Origin: an uncultured Acidobacteriota bacterium
GTDB lineage: Bacteria > Acidobacteriota > Vicinamibacteria > Fen-336
Assembly: GCA_902826455.1 (NCBI GenBank)
Contig: CADEEV010000003.1
Coordinates: forward strand, 140,899-184,012
DNA length: 43,114 bases
Direction: 5' to 3'
Part shown: positions 10 through 43,114 of the stretch, piece after piece
How positions within the stretch are numbered: the first letter of the stretch is position 1
Layout: the number at the start of each line of letters is the position of its first letter
Made by a program: the position numbers and the translations under genes
The notes under the pieces: generated by a model
The model's input: the letters and a program-made list of their open reading frames with translations, nothing else
Databases searched by the model: none
What the model was told of the DNA's origin: nothing

Positions 10-1854
10 GTGGTGCGCCACGGTCGGGCGGGCCGCTGGCTGCTGTGGCTGCTCGTGGCGGCGCTGCCCTTCGTGCCGCTCCTCACCGGCCGCGGCTTGT
101 GGCTGCTCGTGTTCCAGGGACCCACGCTGCTGATCGTCGCCCTGGCAGCGGCAGGCTTCGGGCTCGCCGGAGCCACGCGTCGCGCGCCGTTGCCTCGCGC
201 GAACGCCGTGCTGATCGCGCTGCTCACGTTCCTCGGGTACGCCCTGCTCGCGCGCTTCCTCCCGGGAGCCGCCGGACCCCAGGGCGACGAGCCCCACTAC
301 CTCGTCATGGCCGAGAGCCTGCGCAGCGACGGCGACCTGGACCTGCGCGACGAGCACGACGACCGTGCCTACCGCTCGTTCTACGCCGGGCGGCTCGTGC
401 CCCATCGCTCGCCGGCGAGCCCGCGCGGCCGCCTCTACTCCGTCCACGCCCCGGGCCTACCGCTGCTGATGCTGCCCGGCTACGTCGTGGCGGGTTTCGC
501 GGGGGCGCAGCTCGCGATCGCCGCGGTGGCGGCCCTCGCCGTGGCCCTCGTCTTCGGCCTCGTCCGAGAGGTCAGCCGCGACGAGTGGACGGCCCGCACG
601 ACGGCCGCGGCCCTGGCGCTCGCACCGCCGTTCTCGTTCTACGCCGTCTCGCTCTACCCGGAGGCGTTCGGCGCCCTCGCCACGGCCGTCTTCCTGTGGA
701 CCGGCCGCAGCGATCCCACGCGCCCGCGCCTGCTGACCGCGGCGGCCATCGCGGCGGCGCTGCCGTGGTTCCATCCCAAGTTCCTGCCGCTCGCGGCGCT
801 GGGCCTGGGCCTCACCCTCGTGCGCCGCGGGCCGTGGGCGCAGCGAACCCTGGCGTTGGCCTTGGGGGCCGGCGGGCTCGTCGGGCTCCTCGTCCTGTTC
901 GGCGCTCTCTACGGCCGGGCCACGCTGTCGGCCGCCTACGGAGCCGGAATCGCCTCGGACGTTTCCCTGTCCCGTATCCCGCGCGGCCTGGCGGCGCTGG
1001 CCTTCGATCGCCAGTTCGGCCTCCTGCCGCTCGCGCCGCTCTGGCTTCTCGCGGTGCCGGGCGGTTTCCTGTTGTGGAGGCGGGCACCGGGCGACCTGAT
1101 GCGCGCCGTGCTCCTCGCCGCGGCGACCCTCGGGGTGGGGGCCTCGTTCAGCATGTGGTGGGGCGGCACGTGCCCGCCGGCGCGCTTCGTCGTGCCCGCA
1201 CTTCCGGTGCTGGCGCTGCTGATGGCCCCGGCCGTGACGCGTTTTCCACGCACGGCGTGGGGCCTGCTCGGGGCTGGGCTCGCGGTCACGCTCGTGGCCG
1301 CGGACGCACCCCGCGCGATCCACAACCGGCCCGACGGCGAGAGCGCGCTCTTGAAGGTGCTCGCTCCCACGGTGAGTCTCGATCCCCTGCTGCCGTCCTT
1401 CGTGCCCGACACGGGGCCGAGCGAGGTCGGCGTGCACGAGCGGCGTGCGACGCTCGAGCTGCTCTACGCCCTCGCCGCGCGCCGTGTCGTCGGGGTGTCG
1501 GGTCCCGTGGTGCCTGCGGATCTCTCCCTGCCCCTGGACCTCCCGGGCGCTCCCTGGTCGCTCACGCCGCGGGAGGTACGCGTCTCGCGCAGGCTCGACC
1601 TGCCTGCGGGCCGCTACCGCCTCGTGGCGCGCGGCGCCGTCGGAGCCGGAGGCGTACTGCGGCTCGGTCTCACTTCCGAGGAAGGTCGGCTGGGCGTGAT
1701 CCACATGACCCCGGGAGCCGCCGACGCCTCCCTGGAGCTGTCGCTTCCGAGCGGCGCCACCCGCGTCGCGTTGAGCGCCGAGGCGGAAGACGCCCCCGCA
1801 CTCCTCGAGAGCGTGCGCCTGCAGCCGGTCGCCCTCGCCGGGGTGCGGCCTTAG
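10..1854 (+). CDS. GT-C-like multi-spanning membrane protein, possibly partial at 5' end
   Basis: This is a polytopic inner-membrane protein of about 614 residues with roughly ten hydrophobic segments over residues 10-430, followed by a non-membrane C-terminal domain (about 450-614). The first large loop carries GDEPHYL with acidic pair D93-E94. That resembles the Asp/Glu motif in the first periplasmic loop of GT-C glycosyltransferases such as ArnT/PMT, which use polyprenyl-phosphate sugars. The start is uncertain: the frame is open from base 1, and GTG codons lie at 10 and 13, so the true start may be left of the window. The gene ends in a 4-base tail-to-tail overlap with the leftward gene at 1851, which has the same overall design. 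A GT-C-type sugar transferase is an inference from topology and the loop motif; no donor or acceptor can be named. Confidence 0.72.
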   Translation: MVRHGRAGRWLLWLLVAALPFVPLLTGRGLWLLVFQGPTLLIVALAAAGFGLAGATRRAPLPRANAVLIALLTFLGYALLARFLPGAAGPQGDEPHYLVMAESLRSDGDLDLRDEHDDRAYRSFYAGRLVPHRSPASPRGRLYSVHAPGLPLLMLPGYVVAGFAGAQLAIAAVAALAVALVFGLVREVSRDEWTARTTAAALALAPPFSFYAVSLYPEAFGALATAVFLWTGRSDPTRPRLLTAAAIAAALPWFHPKFLPLAALGLGLTLVRRGPWAQRTLALALGAGGLVGLLVLFGALYGRATLSAAYGAGIASDVSLSRIPRGLAALAFDRQFGLLPLAPLWLLAVPGGFLLWRRAPGDLMRAVLLAAATLGVGASFSMWWGGTCPPARFVVPALPVLALLMAPAVTRFPRTAWGLLGAGLAVTLVAADAPRAIHNRPDGESALLKVLAPTVSLDPLLPSFVPDTGPSEVGVHERRATLELLYALAARRVVGVSGPVVPADLSLPLDLPGAPWSLTPREVRVSRRLDLPAGRYRLVARGAVGAGGVLRLGLTSEEGRLGVIHMTPGAADASLELSLPSGATRVALSAEAEDAPALLESVRLQPVALAGVRP

Positions 1855-3620
1855 CGCAGCTCGTACACCCGCTCGGGATCCGTCGGCGGCACGAGCGCGA
1901 TGGCGTCGATCGACGCCAGGGCGTCGGCGCGGCCGATCGTGACCACGAGGTCGGGGCCGCCCGACTGCGCGTACAGATAAGGATGGCGGATGCGGAACGG
2001 CCCGGAGATCGGATACTCGCGGAACTGCGGGCGGCCGCCCCAGAACGAGCGCTCGCCCACGTAGAGCATGCCCTTGCCGTGGCCGGTCACGCGCAGCTCC
2101 AGCTTGCGACGCCGGGCCTCGGGAAGGACGCGCAGGAAGATGCCGTCCCAGCGGCCGCGCAGGCGCAGGTAGCCTTCGTCGATGCGGGCGCCCCGCATCA
2201 GGTACAGGTCGCCGAGGGTCGCGTCGGCGCTCTGGGTCACGATGCGGTCGGGGGCCTCGAAGCGCACGCGCGAGCCGCGGCCGCTGAAGAACACGACCGG
2301 GCGTTCGCGGATCACGAGCTTGCCGTCGCGGACCGCCGGCAGGGACGGCACGAAGGCGCCGCGGCCGAGGTAGAGGGGGAGCGGGCTGCGGGCGACGTCC
2401 CACAGCTCCGGGCGTCCGGGGGCCGGAGGCCGCTGGTAGAGGCGCTCCCAGCGGCCGTCGTCGGCGAAGGCCCCGACGAGCTGCACGCCGATCCCCAGCG
2501 CCGCGAGGATCCCGCCGACGAAGCCGACGCTCGCGATGCCCTCGGGCAGGAAGAGCAGCAGCAGCGGCAGGGCATCGGTCATGAGGCGCGGGCCGAAGCT
2601 CTCGCCGCCATGCCACTCGCTCCAGCGGCCCATCAGGCACAGGTGCGCGAGGGCGGCTCCACCGGCGACGAGCGGCAGCCAGCGCTCGTGGCCACGGCGC
2701 ACGGCGCGCACCAGCCCGGCAAGGGCGACCAGCACCACGGGCGTGAAGACGAGCAGGCCCTTCGCGGGCGAGACCAGCAGGCCGAGCTGGCCGCGTCCCC
2801 AGGGCTCGGAGAAGCGCCCGAGCGTCCCGGAGAAGCCGTGCTCGAGCGGCGAGCCGAAGGCGGCCCACTGGTACGCGAGGAGGAACAGCGCGGGACCCGC
2901 GCCCCAGGCGGCGAACGCGAGGACCTGCCGGGGCCAGCGCGCCAGGATCCCGGCGGCCAGGACGGCCGCGAGGGCCACGTCGGCATGCCGGCACGCCACC
3001 ACGAGAGCCAGCGGCAGCGCGGCGCGGCCGGCCCACACCGGATCCTCCTCGGCCTTCAGCGCCAGGAGCAATGCGATCGTCAGGAACAGGACAGCGGCGG
3101 GATGCTGCCAGAGCGCCTGGCTCGTGGACCAGACCGAGGTGCCGAGGGCGAACACGACTGCGGCGAAGCGCGCGTCGCTCGCAGGGTGCCGGCGTGAGAT
3201 CGCCAGGAACAGGAACGCGGCGGCCGCGGCCGAGAACAAGGACGCCGCGAGCTTGCCCGCGAACGCGACGCCGGTCTCGTCGAGGGAGAAGAAGAAGCTC
3301 GCGACCAGGAACACCGGCGTGGCGAGGAGCGAGGGCAGCAACGGGTAGATCGAGACGCCGTGGCCGTTCGCCTCGCGGACGAACGGGAACTCGGCGTCCG
3401 GGTACTCGTCGAGGGTGAAGTTGCCCTCGCGCACGAGGCTCGCGGCCACCCGGGCGTTGACCCGCGTGTCCCCCGACTCGATGGGGCGGCCGTTCGAGAG
3501 CAGCAGCAGGAACAGCACGAGGCCCAGCAGGAACGCGGTCGTGGGGCTGCCGCCGACTGGCCGCGCCGAGTAGAGCGTGCCCTCGTAGGCGTCGCGCGAC
3601 TCCGGAGCGCGGACCCCCAT
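1851..3620 (-). CDS. GT-C-like multi-spanning membrane protein with C-terminal soluble domain
   Basis: This 589-residue protein has about ten hydrophobic segments between residues 28 and 385, then a soluble, beta-rich-looking C-terminal part of about 200 residues. The segment after the first membrane helix (NGRPIESGDTRVNA, near residue 45) places an acidic motif where GT-C enzymes keep their catalytic Asp. The design (GT-C-like core plus soluble C-terminus) mirrors the convergent gene at 10-1854, so the two may be distant paralogues in envelope glycosylation; that is inference. Its ATG shares one base with the mltG stop (TGATG), so it is probably translated as the third gene of a ruvX-mltG transcript. 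No specific function is assigned. Confidence 0.75.
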   Translation of the reverse strand: MGVRAPESRDAYEGTLYSARPVGGSPTTAFLLGLVLFLLLLSNGRPIESGDTRVNARVAASLVREGNFTLDEYPDAEFPFVREANGHGVSIYPLLPSLLATPVFLVASFFFSLDETGVAFAGKLAASLFSAAAAAFLFLAISRRHPASDARFAAVVFALGTSVWSTSQALWQHPAAVLFLTIALLLALKAEEDPVWAGRAALPLALVVACRHADVALAAVLAAGILARWPRQVLAFAAWGAGPALFLLAYQWAAFGSPLEHGFSGTLGRFSEPWGRGQLGLLVSPAKGLLVFTPVVLVALAGLVRAVRRGHERWLPLVAGGAALAHLCLMGRWSEWHGGESFGPRLMTDALPLLLLFLPEGIASVGFVGGILAALGIGVQLVGAFADDGRWERLYQRPPAPGRPELWDVARSPLPLYLGRGAFVPSLPAVRDGKLVIRERPVVFFSGRGSRVRFEAPDRIVTQSADATLGDLYLMRGARIDEGYLRLRGRWDGIFLRVLPEARRRKLELRVTGHGKGMLYVGERSFWGGRPQFREYPISGPFRIRHPYLYAQSGGPDLVVTIGRADALASIDAIALVPPTDPERVYELR

Positions 3621-6253: not shown

Positions 6254-8335
6254 ATGCTGCATCGCCGCGCCGCCGTCTTCCCCTTGACCCTGGCCATCGC
6301 CGTGGCCGGCTGCCCCGGCTCGCCCAAGACGACGAAGCCCGCCCGCAAGGCCCCGAACAAGGTCTTCGTGATGGGCTTCGACGGCATGGACCCGACCCTG
6401 ACGCGGAAGTTCATGGACGAAGGCAAGCTGCCGAACCTCAAGAAGCTGGCCGAGGCCGGAACCTTCGAGACCCTCGGCTCGACCCAGCCCTCGGAGTCCC
6501 CCACCGCGTGGTCCAGCTTCGCGACCGGCGTCAACCCAGGCAAGCACAACATCTACGACTTCCTCACGCGCAGCTTCGAGACGTACCTGCCGGACCTCGG
6601 CATGGTGAAGAAGGGCGATCCGCCCGAGTTCCTGTGGGGGCTGTTCCCCACCAAGCTGCCCAAGCTCACGTCGATCCGAGGCGGCACCTCGTTCTGGGTC
6701 CACGCCGGGCGTGACGGCGTCAAGAGCATCGTGCTGACGGTGCCGGTGACGTTCCCGCCCGAGGAGATCGAGCACGGAGAGATGCTGTCGGGACTGCCGC
6801 TGTCCGACATGCGCGGCACGATCGGCACCTTCAACTACTGGGGCACGGACCTCACCTCGTTCGAGGAAGGCAACACCGAGTTCGGCGGCTACCTGAAGAC
6901 GCTGCTCTTCGAGAACGGCGTCGCCGAGACCTTCATCAAGGGCCCGGAGAACCCGATCCTCAAGCAGGAGGAGCGCGAGCTCAAGGCGAAGAAGAAGGAC
7001 GGCGCGCTCTCGGAGAGCGACCAAAAGCGCCTCGACGAGCTCGCGACCACGAAGGACGTGAACATCCCCCTCAAGGTGAAGTGGAGCGAGAACTCGGGGC
7101 AGGCCGAGCTCGAGATCCAGGGCCAGAAGCTCACGCTGAAGCAGGGCCAGTGGAGCGACTGGGTGCCGATCTCCTTCAAGTTCAACTTCCTCATCAAGGT
7201 CCACGGCATGACGCAGTTCTACGTCGTGCGCGCCGACAAGGAGCTCCAGCTCTACGCGTCGCCGGTCAACATGGACCCGCGCAACCCCCCGATCGCCATC
7301 TCCAAGCCCGACGACTTCGCGCCGCGCCTCGCGAAACAGATCGGCCTCTACCGCACCCTCGGCTGGGCCGAGTCCGCCGACAAGGCCCTGAACGAGGGGC
7401 GCCTGAGCGAAGCGGACTTCATGTACGACTCGGAGAAGGCCTTCGACGACCGCGAGCGGATCTTCTTCAAGAACCTCGAGCGCACCGACTGGGACCTGTT
7501 CGTCGCGGTGATCGAGACGACCGACCGCGTCTCGCACATGATGTGGCGCCTGATCGACCCCAAGCACCCGATGTACGACGCCGAGCTCGCGGCGAAGTAC
7601 GGCGACTCGATCGAGAAGGTGTACCGGCGCGCCGACGACCTCGTGGGCAAGCTGCAGGCGAAGCTGCCCGAGGGCACGGTGTTCATGGTCATGTCCGACC
7701 ACGGCTTCCACACCTTCCGGCGCGGCGTGAACCTCAACACCTGGCTCGTCCAGAACGGCTACATGTCGTTCCACGGCCAGCTCGACAACAAGAAGGGTCT
7801 CGCCGACCTGTTCGGCCGCGGCAAGTTCTTCGAGGGCGTCGACTGGACGCGCACCAAGGCGTACGCCGTCGGCCTCGGCCAGATCTACTTCAACCTGCGC
7901 GGCCGCGAATCCCAGGGCGTCGTGTCCGCGGGGGCCGAGTACAAGGCGCTCCAGGACGAGATCCGCGGCAAGCTCGTGACGCTGCTCGATCCCGACACCA
8001 ACGAGCCGGTGTTCCGCGACATCTACAAGCGCGACGACATCTACAAGGGCGAGTACCTGCAGTTCGCCCCGGACCTGCAGGTCGGCTTCAACGACGGCTA
8101 CCGGGTGGGCTGGCAGGATACACTCGGCGGCGTGACCCGGGCCGTGGTCGAGAACAACAACCGCAAGTGGAGCGGCGACCATTGCGCGACGGCCACCGAG
8201 ATCAGCGGCGGCGTCTTCTTCAGCAACCGCAAGATCGACACGAAGACGCCGAACATCATGGATCTCTCGCCCACGATCCTGAAGCTGCTCGGCGTGCCCC
8301 TCCCCTCGGACCTGGACGGCAAGCCCCTGATGTGA
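6254..8335 (+). CDS. Lipoprotein of the alkaline phosphatase / type I phosphodiesterase superfamily
   Basis: This is a predicted secreted lipoprotein of 693 residues. The N-terminus reads MLHRRAAVFPLTLAIAVAGC, ending in a lipobox cysteine. The core has alkaline-phosphatase-superfamily marks: FVMGFDGMDPT (first metal Asp), SESPTAWSSFATGVNPGKHN (nucleophile region), ETTDRVSHMMW, VMSDHGFHTF and WSGDHCAT (metal ligands). A Lys/Glu-rich insert of about 100 residues sits in the middle (about 225-330). The ATG at 6254 is preferred over a TTG at 6239 because GAGGAG (6244-6249) lies just upstream and the signal peptide then begins cleanly. A TAGAAT box at 6203-6208 is a plausible -10. The substrate is unknown; type I phosphodiesterase or nucleotide pyrophosphatase is a family name only. 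A second lipoprotein of this superfamily lies at 36128. Confidence 0.88.
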   Translation: MLHRRAAVFPLTLAIAVAGCPGSPKTTKPARKAPNKVFVMGFDGMDPTLTRKFMDEGKLPNLKKLAEAGTFETLGSTQPSESPTAWSSFATGVNPGKHNIYDFLTRSFETYLPDLGMVKKGDPPEFLWGLFPTKLPKLTSIRGGTSFWVHAGRDGVKSIVLTVPVTFPPEEIEHGEMLSGLPLSDMRGTIGTFNYWGTDLTSFEEGNTEFGGYLKTLLFENGVAETFIKGPENPILKQEERELKAKKKDGALSESDQKRLDELATTKDVNIPLKVKWSENSGQAELEIQGQKLTLKQGQWSDWVPISFKFNFLIKVHGMTQFYVVRADKELQLYASPVNMDPRNPPIAISKPDDFAPRLAKQIGLYRTLGWAESADKALNEGRLSEADFMYDSEKAFDDRERIFFKNLERTDWDLFVAVIETTDRVSHMMWRLIDPKHPMYDAELAAKYGDSIEKVYRRADDLVGKLQAKLPEGTVFMVMSDHGFHTFRRGVNLNTWLVQNGYMSFHGQLDNKKGLADLFGRGKFFEGVDWTRTKAYAVGLGQIYFNLRGRESQGVVSAGAEYKALQDEIRGKLVTLLDPDTNEPVFRDIYKRDDIYKGEYLQFAPDLQVGFNDGYRVGWQDTLGGVTRAVVENNNRKWSGDHCATATEISGGVFFSNRKIDTKTPNIMDLSPTILKLLGVPLPSDLDGKPLM

Positions 8336-9492
8336 GGCGGCTGGCGCTGCTGCTGGGACTGGCCCTGCTGGCGCCCGCCCGCGCGGGGGGTCAGTCGTCG
8401 TCCCCCTCGGCAGAGCCGTCGCCGCAGCCGGCGCCGGTCGGGGACGAGCGCCTCCGCAAGGTCCAGGAGCGCCGGGCCACCCTCGAGCGGGAAGTGGCCC
8501 GGTTGCGCGTGGAAGAGAAGAGCCTGCTCGGCGCGGTGGAGCGCCTCGAGCTCGAGGTGCGCCTGGGCGGCGAACGCCTGCGCGAGTCCCAGCTGCTCCT
8601 GCAGCGCACCAACGCCCAGCTCGACGCGACCCTCAAGCGCTCGCGGCAGATCGAGGCCCAGGTCGAGGCCGAACGGCCCCTGCTGAGGGCACGGGCACGC
8701 GACCTCTACAAGCTCGGCGACGTGTCGTACATGCGGCTGCTGTTGTCCGTCGAGCGGCCCGCCGACTTCCTCAACGGCTACCGCTACGTGACGGCTCTCG
8801 CCCGCCGCGACAACCAGCGCATCGCCGCGTTCCGGTCGGATCTCGTCGCCCTCGCGACCACGCGCCAGGAGCTCGAGACGAAGACCACGGAAGCGGTCGC
8901 CCTGCGCAGCGACCTGCAGCGCACGCAACGGCAGCTCGAGGCCGATCGCAGCCGCAAGACCGAGCTGCTCACGTCCCTCGTCGAGAAGAAGGAGACGAAC
9001 GCGGCCTACGTCCAGGAGCTGCAGGATGCCGAGAGGCGGCTCCAGGGGATGATCGCCGGCCTGGGCGACACCGACGTGGCGGTCCCCGCCGCCGTCTTCA
9101 AGGGCGCCCTGCCCTGGCCGGTGAAGGGGCGCGTGCGCATTCCCTTCGGCTTGCGCAAGCACCCGCGCTTCGACACCTACACGGTGCAGAACGGCGTCGA
9201 GATCGCGGCGCCCGCCGACGCGCCGGCCACGGCCGTCTACGACGGAATCGTGGTGTTCGCCGATCGCTTCAAGGGCTACGGGCTGCTCGTGGTGGTCGAC
9301 CACGGTGGCAAGCACCACACGCTCTACGGCCACCTCTCCGCGGCGACGGTCCAGCCCGGCCAGAAGGTCAGCGCGGGGGACACCGTGGGTCTCGTCGGCG
9401 GCGGCCTCGAGGGTCCCGGCCTGTATTTCGAGGTCCGCTTCCAGGGAAAACCCGAGGATCCCCTGGATTGGCTGAAGAAGGACGACAGGTAG
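8332..9492 (+). CDS. EnvC-like murein hydrolase activator with degenerate LytM (M23) domain
   Basis: This secreted 386-residue protein has a signal peptide (MRRLALLLGLALLAPARA), a long coiled coil (about 35-250) and a C-terminal LytM/M23 domain (about 262-380). The start is GTG 8332, which overlaps the previous stop (GTGA). The LytM domain lacks the usual zinc ligands: the H-x-G-x-D block is replaced by QNGVEIAAP, and the final HLHFE block reads GLYFEVR. Only YGHL keeps a His. E. coli EnvC is degenerate in the same way and activates the amidases AmiA/AmiB under FtsEX control, so a non-enzymatic amidase activator is the best inference. The S41 gene starts 11 bases after the stop, an arrangement often seen for envC and ctp genes. 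No amidase gene lies nearby. Confidence 0.9.
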   Translation: MRRLALLLGLALLAPARAGGQSSSPSAEPSPQPAPVGDERLRKVQERRATLEREVARLRVEEKSLLGAVERLELEVRLGGERLRESQLLLQRTNAQLDATLKRSRQIEAQVEAERPLLRARARDLYKLGDVSYMRLLLSVERPADFLNGYRYVTALARRDNQRIAAFRSDLVALATTRQELETKTTEAVALRSDLQRTQRQLEADRSRKTELLTSLVEKKETNAAYVQELQDAERRLQGMIAGLGDTDVAVPAAVFKGALPWPVKGRVRIPFGLRKHPRFDTYTVQNGVEIAAPADAPATAVYDGIVVFADRFKGYGLLVVVDHGGKHHTLYGHLSAATVQPGQKVSAGDTVGLVGGGLEGPGLYFEVRFQGKPEDPLDWLKKDDR

Positions 9493-9503: not shown

Positions 9504-10682
9504 ATGAGCCCGCGCGCCCGTCTCCTCGTCGCTTTCGTGTCCACCGGCGTCTGCGCCTACGTCCTCGCCGGCACCGTGCTCGGCCGGGTCTTCGGCGACA
9601 CGACCTACGGCCAGCTCTCGGTCTTCGGCGAGGTGATGAACCTCGTCCTGACCGCGTACGTGGATCCCGTGAACGTGGACCGGGTGATGGGCGGCGCCCG
9701 CGTGGGCCTGACCGACGCCCTCGATCCAGAGAGCGCCTACCTCGATCCCGAGGAGCTCAAGGCCTACCAGCAGCCGGCCAAGGACACGGACGCCGACATC
9801 GGCGTCGTGCTCTCGCGCCGCTTCACGTTCCTCGCGATCGTGGCGCCGCGAGCGGGCTCCCCCGCCGAGAAGGCGGGCGTCAAGAGCGGCGACATCGTGA
9901 AGACGATCGACGGCCGCCACACCCGCGGGGTCAGCGTGCCCGTGGGGGCGCGCCTGCTCCGCGGCGCGCCGGGCTCGACGGTCAAGCTCGAGATCCTGCG
10001 GCCGGGCGTCGATCCGGTGACGATCTCGGTCGTGCGCGAGCGTCTCACGGCGGAGGCGCCGAGCGGACGCGTGCTCGAGTCGGGCCCGGGCTATCTTCGC
10101 GTGGCCGAGTTCTCCCCGAAGACCGCCGACGCGGTGCGCGACGAGGTGGAGACGCTGAAGCGCGGCGGCGCCAAGAGCCTCGTGCTCGACCTGCGCGACG
10201 CCGCCTACGGCGATCCGGCCGACGGCGTCGATACGGCGGCCCTGTTCCTGAAGGGCGGCACCGTGGCGAAGGTCGTGGGACGGCGCGTCGCCGAGCGCAC
10301 GCTCACGGCCGATCCGAAACGCTCGGCCTGGGATCTGCCGATGGTCGTGCTCGTCGACTCCGGCACGGCGGGGCCGGCCGAGGTGGTCGCGGCGGCCCTT
10401 CTCGACGCCGGCAAGCCGGTCGTGGGCCAGCACACGTACGGCTCGGCACCGGTGCAGAAGCTGGTGACGCTGCCGGAGGGCGGCCTCGTCCTCACGGTCG
10501 CCAAGTACCTGTCGCCGAAGGGCAACCCGATCCACGGCAAGGGCGTCGAGCCCAGCGTGGCGGTCGCGCTCCACGACCTCGCGGACGACGACGACGACAC
10601 GACGGCGCCCGCGGGCGATCCGGTCCTCGACAAGGCGATCGAGATCCTGAACGGCGGCGGCGAGGTCAAGAAGGCGGCCTGA
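9504..10682 (+). CDS. S41/CtpA-family PDZ protein with catalytic Ser and Lys substituted (pseudoprotease)
   Basis: This 392-residue membrane-anchored or secreted protein has an N-terminal hydrophobic segment (about 7-28), a PDZ domain (about 95-185, with AGSPAEKAGVKSGDIVKTIDG) and an S41 tail-specific protease fold (about 190-375). In active members the block reads GTASASE and TFGKG, with the Ser and Lys forming the catalytic dyad. Here the same blocks read GTAGPAE (Ser to Gly at about 290) and TYGSAP (Lys to Ser at about 314). The fold-conserving block SPKGNPIHGKGVEPSVAV is intact and the frame is open, so this looks like a maintained non-proteolytic homologue rather than a decayed gene. It lies directly after the EnvC-like gene. 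A scaffolding role in controlling a cell-wall amidase is inference. A short Asp run (DDDDD) lies near the C-terminus. Confidence 0.9.
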   Translation: MSPRARLLVAFVSTGVCAYVLAGTVLGRVFGDTTYGQLSVFGEVMNLVLTAYVDPVNVDRVMGGARVGLTDALDPESAYLDPEELKAYQQPAKDTDADIGVVLSRRFTFLAIVAPRAGSPAEKAGVKSGDIVKTIDGRHTRGVSVPVGARLLRGAPGSTVKLEILRPGVDPVTISVVRERLTAEAPSGRVLESGPGYLRVAEFSPKTADAVRDEVETLKRGGAKSLVLDLRDAAYGDPADGVDTAALFLKGGTVAKVVGRRVAERTLTADPKRSAWDLPMVVLVDSGTAGPAEVVAAALLDAGKPVVGQHTYGSAPVQKLVTLPEGGLVLTVAKYLSPKGNPIHGKGVEPSVAVALHDLADDDDDTTAPAGDPVLDKAIEILNGGGEVKKAA

Positions 10683-39270: not shown

Positions 39271-40710
39271 TCATAGCGCGAGGCCCGCCAGGCTCTCGGA
39301 CAGCCCGGCCTTCTCCCGGGCCACCCGGATCGCGTCCCAACCCAGGGCGTCGGACAGCGCCAGGACGATGGCGTCGAGCTCCGACTCGGCCGGCAGACCG
39401 CCGCTCACGAGGTCGAGCCTGCGCAGCACGATGTCGGACAGGGTGAGGGCCATCTCGTCCTTCATCGCGGCGAGCGCCTGCTGCGTCAGGGTGCCCGGGA
39501 GCGGCGCCGCGTGCTTCAGGACCGTGGCGGCCGTGCGCGAGGGCCGGCCGGAGCCGAGCTTGCGTGCCACGAGGTCGATCGCCTCCTCGGCCACGGCGCG
39601 GGCCGTCGTGTACTTGACGCCCTGCACCGAGACGAGACCGGCGAGGCCGTCGCGCGCATGGTCCACGAGCAGGTGCCGCCCCGCGAGCTGACGCGCGCTG
39701 CGGCCGGGCACGCGTCCGCGGTGGACGAGGGCGACGTCGGCCGGCTCGAGGCGCGCCCACGGGTAGGCGTGACGGGCCTCGTCCAGGAACCGGCGCCCGT
39801 CCTCGACCGGATCGGCGGTCGCGGCCGGCACGTAGTCGGTGCCGACGATGGCGCGGCCGGCCCACGGCACCAGGAAGAGGTATCGGCCGTTCGAGAGGGC
39901 GCCCAGCGCGTGGTCGCGCACGACCGGCCGTCGCAGCACCAGGTTCAAGGCCGAGAGCAGCGGCACCGGCGGCCGCCGGGAACCGGCCAGGCCGAGGACC
40001 TCGTCCATGCCGGGGCCGGCGGCGTTCAGGATCACGCGCGCGCGCACCTCGACGATCTCGCCGCTCACCATGTCCTCGATGCGCACGACCGTGATGCGAT
40101 CGCCGGAAACCCCGAAGCCCACGACGCGCGCATGGTTGGCGAGCAGCGCATGCGCGGCGTCGGCCGCGTGCAGCACGCCGACGAGCAGGCGCTCGCTGCT
40201 CGAGACCTGGGCGTCCGTCCAGGTGGCGCCGCCCGTCAGGCCGGCGGCGGGCACGCCGGGCGCGAGGTGCAGCAGCTCCTCGCGGCTCAGGCTACGGCCG
40301 GGCGGGATGCGCTGGGGCGCCGGGAGGCCCTCGTTTCGGTCGCGGCTCACGAGGTCGTTCGCACGCAGCGCGATCGCCAGCGCCTCGCGTCCCTTGAGCC
40401 CGTGGCCGTAGGTCGGCACGACGAAGCGCAGCGGCTTCACCAGCGCGGGCGCGATGCGCAGCAGCGTGCGGCGCTCGCGGATCGACTCGCGCATGCGCGG
40501 CAGGTCGAGCCCCTGCAGGTAGCGCAGCCCGCCGTGGATCGTCTTCAGGCTGTTCCAGGACGTGCCCGAGCCGAAGTCCTCCGCCTCGACGAGCGCCGTC
40601 TTCAGCCCGCGCTGCGCCGCGTCCCAGGCCGCGAACGCGCCGTGGATGCCGCCGCCGATGATCAGCACGTCGTGCTCGCGCGCGGCGATCGCGGCCAGGT
40701 CTCTCTTCAC
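39271..40710 (-). CDS. glpD: FAD-dependent glycerol-3-phosphate dehydrogenase GlpD
   Basis: This enzyme oxidises sn-glycerol-3-phosphate to dihydroxyacetone phosphate at the membrane and gives electrons to the quinone pool. The 479-residue length fits bacterial GlpD. The N-terminal FAD site is HDVLIIGGGIHGAFAAWDAAQRG; SGTSWNSLKTIHGGLRYLQ, GATWTDAQ, NAAGPGMDEV, LFLVPWAGRAIVGTDY and VQGVKYTTARAVAEEA are further family blocks. The GTG at 40710 has no strong ribosome site, and a TGCTATCGT box lies 7 bases upstream. No glycerol kinase or facilitator gene is nearby, so the enzyme may serve phospholipid turnover or respiration from glycolytic triose. Confidence 0.94.
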   Translation of the reverse strand: MKRDLAAIAAREHDVLIIGGGIHGAFAAWDAAQRGLKTALVEAEDFGSGTSWNSLKTIHGGLRYLQGLDLPRMRESIRERRTLLRIAPALVKPLRFVVPTYGHGLKGREALAIALRANDLVSRDRNEGLPAPQRIPPGRSLSREELLHLAPGVPAAGLTGGATWTDAQVSSSERLLVGVLHAADAAHALLANHARVVGFGVSGDRITVVRIEDMVSGEIVEVRARVILNAAGPGMDEVLGLAGSRRPPVPLLSALNLVLRRPVVRDHALGALSNGRYLFLVPWAGRAIVGTDYVPAATADPVEDGRRFLDEARHAYPWARLEPADVALVHRGRVPGRSARQLAGRHLLVDHARDGLAGLVSVQGVKYTTARAVAEEAIDLVARKLGSGRPSRTAATVLKHAAPLPGTLTQQALAAMKDEMALTLSDIVLRRLDLVSGGLPAESELDAIVLALSDALGWDAIRVAREKAGLSESLAGLAL

Positions 40711-40744: not shown

Positions 40745-43114
40745 CTAGTTCCTTGGCGGAGCGAGCAGCAACGTCACGCCGCCGCTCGTGTACTCGGCGC
40801 GTCCTTCGGGCGTGATGCGGTGCGCCACGCTCCCTGCCCGCACGGCGCGCACGGTGGCGGCCACGGCGGCGAGACGCTCGGGCGGCGCCAGGGCCTTCTC
40901 GTGGTTCGTGAGCAGGTGTCGCACGCCGGGCAACGCCCGCAGGCGGGCCAGGGAGCGCTGGTACGCGTCGAGATCGGTCTCTGGCTCGAACAGCCAGAGC
41001 GGGCCGTCGTAGAACGTGTCGCCCGTGAACAGCAGACCGGCCTCGCGATCGAAGAGCGCGAGCGAGTCCGGTGTGTGGCCCGGCACGCTCAGGATCTCGA
41101 GGCGCCGGCCGCCGAGATCCACGACGTCGCCGTCCTTGACCCAGTCGGTGATCGTCCAGGGCCGGATGCGGTAGCTCGCGACGGCCTGTCCCGCCGGCAA
41201 GGGACGGCACAAGGCCTCGGGAGCGACTTCGCCCTTCACGACGTCGTGGGCCATTCCGCGCGCGCTCGCACGCGTGAACCGCGTGTCGAGAGCGAGGACG
41301 CGGTCGAAGTCGGCGTTGCCGCCCACGTGGTCGAAGTGGGTGTGGGAGTTGAGCACCCGCACGGGCAGCGTCGTCAGGGACTCGACGGCCTTGCGGATCG
41401 GGCCCATGCCCATCCCGCTGTCGAACAGCAGGGCGCCCGTCGATCCCACCACGAGGTACGAGATCACCTCCTGGAACTGGTACGGCTCGAGGATCTCGTA
41501 GACGCCGTCGGCCACCCGGTAGATGCGGAACCAGTCGTCGGGGCTCGGGAGCTCGGCGAGACCCGCCGACGACGGTGCGTCCTTGCAGAACGCCGCGACG
41601 GGCGAGAGGAGCGCCGTCGCGGCCGTCAGCTCGCGCGTGGCGGCGTCGACGGCGGCCTCGAGCCGCAGGCGCTCGCGGTCGAAGTCCGCGCCCCGCGCCC
41701 GGCGCAGCGCCGGCAGGGTGTCGCCGCTGTACAGGGAGTAGATGTCCCAGCCGTAGACCACGTGGCGATACCACGACGCGCCGTCGGGCGCCGCGAAGCC
41801 GGTCTCGGCGCGCTGCAGGTGATCGTTGACGGCGCGGAGCGTCGCTGCCGGCACCCCGACGGCAGCGTGGGTCTCGAACGTCCGGGCGGCGGTCGCGAGC
41901 GCCGCCACCTTCTCCCGTGTGGCGCCGAGGGACGAATCGGGCGTCAGTCGATCGAGGTAGCCCGAAAGGGCTTCGGCCGTGCGGCTGAAGCGCAAGGGCA
42001 GGATCTCGGCCTGCGCCAGCCGCAGCACCGTGCGGCCCAGGGTGTCGGCCAGCGCCACGCCGGTCCGCCAGCCGGGATCGCCGTGGGTCGTCATCCAGCG
42101 CCGCGTGTCGTAGGCGGAATGGTACGAGCCGTAGCTGGCGTCGCTGCCGTACTCGAGAGACAGCGCGGGCAGTCCGAGGTAGTCCTGGAACGGCACGAAG
42201 TCGGCGCCGCTGCCGAGCGGCTTGAGATCGACCGGCGCGCCGGCGACCGACTCCACGAGCTCGCGCAGCGACGCGGAGCCCCCGGCCTTCAGCGGACCGG
42301 CGAGGTAGTAGTCGGTGTTGACGTAGGCGACGGCGCGCTCGCGCAGCTCGGCCGCGCGATCCTCCGCATACTCCGTGGAGCCCACGAGGCCGTACTCCTC
42401 CGCGTCCCAGAACGCGAACACGATGGAGCGCCGCGGCTGCCAGCCCGTCTTGCGCAGCTCGGAAAGGGCGCGCGCGAGCTCGAGCACCGCGGCCGCGGAG
42501 CTGCCAGGATCGACGCCGCCGAAGGTCCAGGCGTCGTGATGGGTGCCGAGGATCACCTCGCGGTCGGGCTCCTCCTTGCCTTCGATGCGGCCCAGCACGT
42601 CGTAGATCGGCCGCAGGCCCGCGGTCATCGCGACGTCGAGGTCCACGACCGCGGGACCGGGACCCACGCCGCCCGTGAGCGCCTTCAGGATCGGCTCGGC
42701 CGCCGACCACGACAGCACGGCCGCGGGGATCTTCGGCAGGGTCGGCGCGCTCCTCGGATCGAGGCGCTTCGCTTCGTCCGTCGCGGCGACTCCGGGCGTG
42801 AGGGGGTCGCCGTGCCAGAACCAGCTGTACTTGGCGTTGCCGCGCTGCACGAAGCCGGGCGACCGCCACGGGCCGGCAGGCCACACGGGGCCCCTTGCGG
42901 CCCCGTCGTCGCGAGGATCGCTGTAGACGAGGATGCCGCGCGCCCCGCGGCTCTCGGCGGTGTGCACCTTCACCGCCCGGTGAACCTTCCCGTAGCGCGC
43001 GAGGGCGATGGCGCCCTTCACGGAGACGCCCTTCGTCTCGAGAGCCTCGTAGTCGGCCGGGAGGCCGTAGTGCACGTACACCACCGGTCCCTCGACCCTG
43101 CCCGGCGCCGAGTA
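40745..43114 (-). CDS. M28B (glutamate carboxypeptidase II-like) peptidase fused to metallo-beta-lactamase-fold hydrolase, 5' partial
   Basis: The open frame runs off the right edge, and 789 codons are visible. Visible residues 1-505 follow glutamate carboxypeptidase II: a protease-associated segment (GAIALARYGKVHRAVKVHTA), a two-zinc peptidase core with LGTHHDAWTFGGVDPGSSAA, FWDAEEYGLVGSTEYAED, YVNTDYY and YHSAYDT, and a TFR-dimerisation-like helical part (SWYRHVVYGWDIYSLYSGDT). From about residue 525 a metallo-beta-lactamase domain follows without a stop: SYLVVGSTGALLFDSGMGMG, NSHTHFDHVGG (HxHxDH), SVPGHTPDSLALF and LLFTGDTFYDGPLWLF, LLTNHE. Both active sites look complete. The peptidase would trim an acidic C-terminal residue. 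The MBL domain's substrate is unknown. A secretion signal is likely but lies outside the window. It is upstream of glpD. Confidence 0.92.
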   Translation of the reverse strand, partial: YSAPGRVEGPVVYVHYGLPADYEALETKGVSVKGAIALARYGKVHRAVKVHTAESRGARGILVYSDPRDDGAARGPVWPAGPWRSPGFVQRGNAKYSWFWHGDPLTPGVAATDEAKRLDPRSAPTLPKIPAAVLSWSAAEPILKALTGGVGPGPAVVDLDVAMTAGLRPIYDVLGRIEGKEEPDREVILGTHHDAWTFGGVDPGSSAAAVLELARALSELRKTGWQPRRSIVFAFWDAEEYGLVGSTEYAEDRAAELRERAVAYVNTDYYLAGPLKAGGSASLRELVESVAGAPVDLKPLGSGADFVPFQDYLGLPALSLEYGSDASYGSYHSAYDTRRWMTTHGDPGWRTGVALADTLGRTVLRLAQAEILPLRFSRTAEALSGYLDRLTPDSSLGATREKVAALATAARTFETHAAVGVPAATLRAVNDHLQRAETGFAAPDGASWYRHVVYGWDIYSLYSGDTLPALRRARGADFDRERLRLEAAVDAATRELTAATALLSPVAAFCKDAPSSAGLAELPSPDDWFRIYRVADGVYEILEPYQFQEVISYLVVGSTGALLFDSGMGMGPIRKAVESLTTLPVRVLNSHTHFDHVGGNADFDRVLALDTRFTRASARGMAHDVVKGEVAPEALCRPLPAGQAVASYRIRPWTITDWVKDGDVVDLGGRRLEILSVPGHTPDSLALFDREAGLLFTGDTFYDGPLWLFEPETDLDAYQRSLARLRALPGVRHLLTNHEKALAPPERLAAVAATVRAVRAGSVAHRITPEGRAEYTSGGVTLLLAPPRN

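Follow-up and report, generated by a model that had tools for sequence, protein, structure and literature searches.

The window, i.e., the whole stretch of 43,114 nucleotides analysed here, lies in contig 3 (236 kb, extending past the window edge) of an uncultured and probably acidobacterial host, whose assembly comprises 5.26 Mb in 108 contigs. At its right end, the minus strand holds a single frame (43114-40745) with the Pfam domains PA, Peptidase_M28, TFR_dimer and Lactamase_B, all above the gathering score, that is, the parts of an M28B peptidase of the glutamate carboxypeptidase II (GCPII) type followed by a metallo-beta-lactamase-fold (MBL) domain. The features of this region are as follows.

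39271-40710, minus strand: FAD-dependent (glycerol-3-phosphate-type) oxidoreductase, the next gene downstream (DAO, PF01266, E 2.6e-37, above cut-off)
40745-43114, minus strand: whole M28-MBL frame within the window, running on 5' past a 10-N gap to a TTG start
40928-41461, minus strand: metallo-beta-lactamase-fold domain (Lactamase_B, PF00753, E 4.6e-20)
41551-41605, minus strand: junction of the end of M28 homology and the MBL mature start (sequence alignment, GC3)
41606-41917, minus strand: TFR_dimer (transferrin-receptor-like dimerisation) domain (PF04253, E 8.7e-9)
42101-42598, minus strand: Peptidase_M28 catalytic domain (PF04389, E 6.9e-22)
42899-43096, minus strand: PA (protease-associated) domain, the N-terminal part of the GCPII-like module (PF02225, E 1.1e-8)

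In the translated frame (P0001), these domains occupy residues 7-72 (PA), 173-338 (Peptidase_M28), 400-503 (TFR_dimer) and 552-729 (Lactamase_B), with the MBL motifs HTHFDH and GHTPDS at residues 591-596 and 679-684, respectively.

Coding frame, N-terminus and neighbouring genes

The frame is open over 789 codons, which is in itself no evidence of coding, given that a GC content of approximately 73% makes open frames common, and another minus-strand frame of the window is also open, over 801 codons. It is the homology across both halves, together with the GC content of third codon positions (GC3, at 0.93 for M28, 0.92 for MBL and 0.95 near the junction, with an unchanging position preference and no shift of frame), that identifies 40745-43114 on the minus strand as the coding frame. 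The uninterrupted joining of the GCPII-type parts to an MBL domain, as proposed in the initial annotation, is thus confirmed by the Pfam domains, the even GC3 and the homology of the two halves, and by every sequence test available the fusion is real.

The gene continues beyond the window, where a scaffold gap of 10 Ns (positions 8014-8023 of the extended locus, L009), which is not a contig end, lies exactly at the right edge and splits it. The extension of the contig recovered the N-terminus that the initial annotation had placed past this edge, with a TTG start at L009 8348 and GCPII-type homology over L009 8348-8024. The segment that follows the start, LLRSAPALAALALVGNATGARG, resembles a signal peptide, and VREYQAYLSYPKRIAVRL then matches the segment found ahead of the PA domain in relatives. 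Both flanks of the gap fit one protein by homology; they stand in different frames as assembled, with an arbitrary count of Ns, and the comparison with relatives would place roughly 20 residues of the protein inside the gap.

The gene immediately upstream (L009, minus strand, with its stop at 8338 and a likely ATG at 10071) has a 3' end that overlaps the M28-MBL gene by 11 bases, and encodes a protein of the CocE/NonD type, with Peptidase_S15 and PepX_C / CocE_NonD domains, a TIGR00976 score well above the cut-off (365.3 vs 66.3 bits) and cocaine esterase as its closest solved structure. Further upstream, the CocE gene is abutted by the gene of a beta-eliminating lyase, presumably of the threonine aldolase type. 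On the downstream side, 34 bases separate the M28-MBL gene from the FAD oxidoreductase gene on the same strand, and the two are possibly carried on one transcript. The oxidoreductase scores 28.9 bits with DAO_C (PF16901), under the cut-off of 31.4, and is followed, also on the same strand, by the gene of a GGDEF protein.

The junction and the distribution of the fusion

The homology of the M28 relatives stops at approximately residue 500, and the final M28 residues of the fusion, ATRELTAATALLSPVAA, pass straight into FCKDAPSSAGLAELPSPDDWFRIYR with no signal peptide between them. Stand-alone MBL relatives mostly start with a signal peptide or a lipobox (judged by eye), followed by the pattern W-C-x-x-LPRPxY...WFEVY, and it is with their mature start (WCRxLPRPxY) that the segment FCKDAPSSAGL at the junction aligns. 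The junction is located at approximately residues 506-508 (window about 41590-41600), and not at 41500-41560, for which the initial annotation had recommended a check of the raw reads for a hidden stop or indel; at the junction itself, the assembled sequence has no stop, and the frame and the GC3 run unbroken through this point. This is the anatomy to be expected of a true fusion onto a protein that was exported already.

An artefact of assembly or sequencing, in which adjacent genes were joined by a missed stop, a frameshift or a misjoin, would account for the presence of the fusion in no other genome examined, and the assembly is indeed fragmented into 108 contigs, with an N gap inside the gene at the window edge. 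This gap, however, is about 1.5 kb away from the junction. The MBL signal peptide has been lost while the mature start was kept, which is not what reading through a missed stop from one entire gene into another would produce, and the junction anatomy and the GC frame plot led to the rejection of a missed stop or frameshift. The junction segment also argues against an artefact, as it has a single full-length match in the genome, namely itself, with only short, weak stretches elsewhere. Given this, an artefact is very improbable.

No second M28-MBL fusion was found in 193 genomes of the class, in overlapping draws of approximately 395 genomes of the phylum, or in a single scan that covered 84,980 species genomes and reached mainly close relatives. 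The MBL was absent from every M28 relative examined, and the subfamily members related to the MBL half, at 31-54% identity, are encoded in frames of only about 275-454 codons, which could not hold the fusion, although some relatives are at contig ends, where a fusion is possible, such as an MBL of 275 amino acids cut at its N-terminus (G126). The closest stand-alone copies in the phylum share 52-53% (L176/G054), 54% (L105/G129) and 51% (L180/G512) identity with the MBL half. The initial annotation held that the fusion would be refuted if the closest relatives always had two separate genes. This is indeed the arrangement found, yet it marks the fusion as specific to one lineage rather than false, since what is missing at the junction is exactly the signal peptide that a stand-alone MBL would have. 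The architecture joins known enzymes in a new combination that is apparently lineage-specific, and a literature search, of incomplete coverage, returned no description of an M28-MBL protein.

Most of the close M28 relatives in named records are from the Acidobacteriota. A tree built from 57 M28 rows places the sequence of the window within a clade of 22 rows (100/100 support) that includes the CocE-linked members. The sequence is drawn as the first branch of this clade, the remaining rows being held together at 92/66 support, and lies apart from those of its own paralogues that were included. An alignment that combined rows of M28 alone with rows of MBL alone was misaligned and dropped, being used only to compare the M28 rows with one another.

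A number of other arrangements were observed in these searches. Contigs 23, 34, 39 and 77 of the host genome (G000) carry further GCPII-like M28 genes or fragments, with no MBL in the match, and at one locus of a relative (L159, match 1501-3240, in a genome that also contains L040 and L197) the M28 active-site motif FAFWDAEEFGLVGSTE occurs twice in tandem in one frame, through either an assembly error or a duplication. The MBL-half relatives of Erysipelotrichaceae (L053-L056) have no obvious signal peptide, which indicates that the family is not always exported.

Active sites and specificity of the two halves

The zinc ligands and the catalytic glutamate of the M28 half (H192, D202, E239/E240, D268 and H332, in P0001 numbering) are invariant in 30 rows, and align with those of human GCPII/GCPIII wherever the alignment reaches them. 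The PA, Peptidase_M28 and TFR_dimer architecture and the two-zinc site thus place this half in the M28B, or GCPII-type, peptidases. A predicted full-length model, built with M28 rows only, has a pLDDT of mostly 70-98 in the M28 half and is poor in the MBL half, and thus carries no claim on the orientation of the domains.

In GCPII, R210 contacts the alpha-carboxylate, and the preference for acidic substrates is set by K699 in the S1' pocket and by the arginine patch (R534/R536) in S1 (PMC9768917). The counterpart of R210 is kept in the M28 half, and K699 is replaced by Leu461, R534 by Ser319 and R536 by Glu321, with the same Leu and Glu at the K699 and R536 positions in the clade members in the alignment. 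These replacements argue against glutamate specificity, and a carboxypeptidase-like enzyme without it is to be expected from the residues of the pocket. Trematode M28B enzymes with comparable changes yielded no identified substrate in peptide libraries. The possibility of a true glutamate carboxypeptidase, of the folate poly-gamma-glutamate or Asp-Glu type, with the MBL acting on the released product, is favoured by the retained zinc ligands and R210 and by GCPII/III as the best PDB matches (E of about 1e-69), but receives very little credence given the loss of the three residues that would read an acidic side chain.

The MBL half has a complete metal site, with seven residues (H591, H593, D595, H596, H680, D699 and H738) that are invariant in 22 rows, and its membership of the metallo-beta-lactamase superfamily follows from PF00753, from the HxHxDH...H...D...H site and from a domain model with a pLDDT of 94. 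The neighbours returned by a fold search (class B1 enzymes, SPM-1, YcbL, PqsE and chlorothalonil dehalogenase) are too broad a set to indicate function, and the hydroxyacylglutathione hydrolase model of NCBIfam (GSH_gloB) scores 59.1 bits against a cut-off of 200.8.

On the other hand, class B1 enzymes occupy the top rows of the structural comparison (Z about 22, rmsd 2.2-2.8), and the CocE/NonD superfamily includes cephalosporin acylases, both of which would suit a true beta-lactamase that forms an antibiotic-degrading set with the peptidase and an acylase-like protein of the CocE family. The second-site ligand of the MBL half, however, is an Asp (TGD, residue 699), which together with HxHxDH we take to be the glyoxalase II/lactonase pattern, this position being Cys in class B1 and Ser in class B3. 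The NCBIfam models of true class B enzymes fall far below their cut-offs (bla_class_B_core, 43.8 vs 100 bits; bla_subclass_B3, 40.7 vs 240), and the best PDB sequence matches are glyoxalase II-like proteins, YcbL among them, and MIM-2. This antibiotic-degrading role is accordingly most unlikely.

Partner enzymes, a possible common substrate and known systems

In most of the members of the 22-row clade that were examined, CocE lies directly upstream of M28, some members being without CocE in the flanking sequence examined. The two adjoin as separate genes in about ten relatives, overlap as separate genes in the genome of the window, and share one stop-free frame in seven loci (L027, L028, L029, L031, L037, L049 and L194). 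Three of these CocE-M28 fusions, scanned with Pfam, have S15, PepX_C, PA, M28 and TFR_dimer domains, and no second signal peptide was present in those read in sequence. One other CocE-M28 pair, on a contig labelled as a Klebsiella pneumoniae MAG (L034), groups with Acidobacteriota and Gemmatimonadota, and its label is probably wrong.

The reading that we favour, which we give an even chance of being right, is that of a genuine, lineage-specific and exported M28-MBL fusion with two active sites, in a CocE-linked operon, that helps to degrade acylated or esterified peptide-like nutrients. The fusion event would have set a whole mature MBL hydrolase, which relatives produce on its own as an exported protein or a lipoprotein, right behind the dimerisation domain of an exported M28B exopeptidase, discarding the signal peptide of the MBL. 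The product, predicted to be expressed as a single polypeptide, would be exported by its signal peptide to the periplasm or the cell exterior and would dimerise through TFR_dimer. The M28 half may trim C-terminal, non-acidic residues off small peptides or aminoacyl conjugates. The bond cleaved by the MBL half may be that of an ester, a thioester or a lactone, and CocE may take off an acyl ester; jointly the three enzymes would break down such nutrients, with a possible hand-over of intermediates between the sites.

The sequential hydrolysis of one substrate, as suggested in the initial annotation, is a reasonable supposition. The M28 and MBL genes are not neighbours in relatives, so that gene order gives a common substrate no support. 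Members of the M28 clade occur together with members of the MBL subfamily in four of eight genomes besides the host (hypergeometric P of 0.003, uncorrected for phylogeny, with three of the four genomes from one family and presence lists based on E-value cut-offs), which weakly supports a shared substrate.

A real fusion of two unrelated activities with no common substrate, in which the exported dimeric peptidase would be no more than a vehicle that provides the MBL with export, stability or dimerisation, is a serious alternative, albeit a less probable one. It fits the single occurrence of the fusion and the unlinked stand-alone genes, and no neighbour family of the stand-alone MBLs recurs in more than 3 of 20 loci (a nine-locus group in this comparison was a reverse-strand shadow of the MBL gene and was disregarded). 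The full retention of both metal sites speaks against it, however, as does the fusion of the same M28 subfamily to CocE in relatives, which suggests the coupling of a pathway.

A broader proposal, that exported CocE esterases, M28B exopeptidases and MBL hydrolases have merged recurrently into multi-site enzymes that break down a single class of acylated or esterified peptide compound stepwise and pass intermediates between their sites, with the present locus as one stage of this process, seems rather unlikely. The fused M28-MBL form is known from one example, which provides no comparative proof of its retention by selection, and the surprise is moderate, given that this single case joins two ordinary members of huge families. 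The fused pair would nonetheless indicate a functional relationship that is not apparent from separate genes, and the M28-MBL and CocE-M28 fusions together may serve as a “Rosetta-stone” hint at the natural substrate of the GCPII-like peptidases of bacteria, of which the literature search returned no description. The fusion also offers a compact protein with two metal sites for testing.

Compared with known systems, the M28 half has the domain order, zinc ligands, catalytic Glu and R210-type residue of GCPII/III (M28B; PDB 2c6c, 3fec), and differs in the replaced K699 and arginine patch, the bacterial origin, the signal-peptide-like start and the added C-terminal MBL. The MBL half shares the fold of glyoxalase II/YcbL (PDB 2xf4, 2qed) and of class B1 enzymes (BcII, SPM-1), and the bridging Asp of glyoxalase II, at an identity of about 12-26% and below the curated NCBIfam cut-offs. 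The stand-alone MBLs of the phylum, alignable over their full length, have the same HxHxDH/H/D/H site and mature N-terminal motif, in separate genes with their own signal peptide or lipobox that are not beside M28 genes. Finally, the seven CocE-M28 fusions likewise join the same M28 subfamily to a second hydrolase, which in their case is an N-terminal CocE/NonD esterase in a protein that has no MBL.
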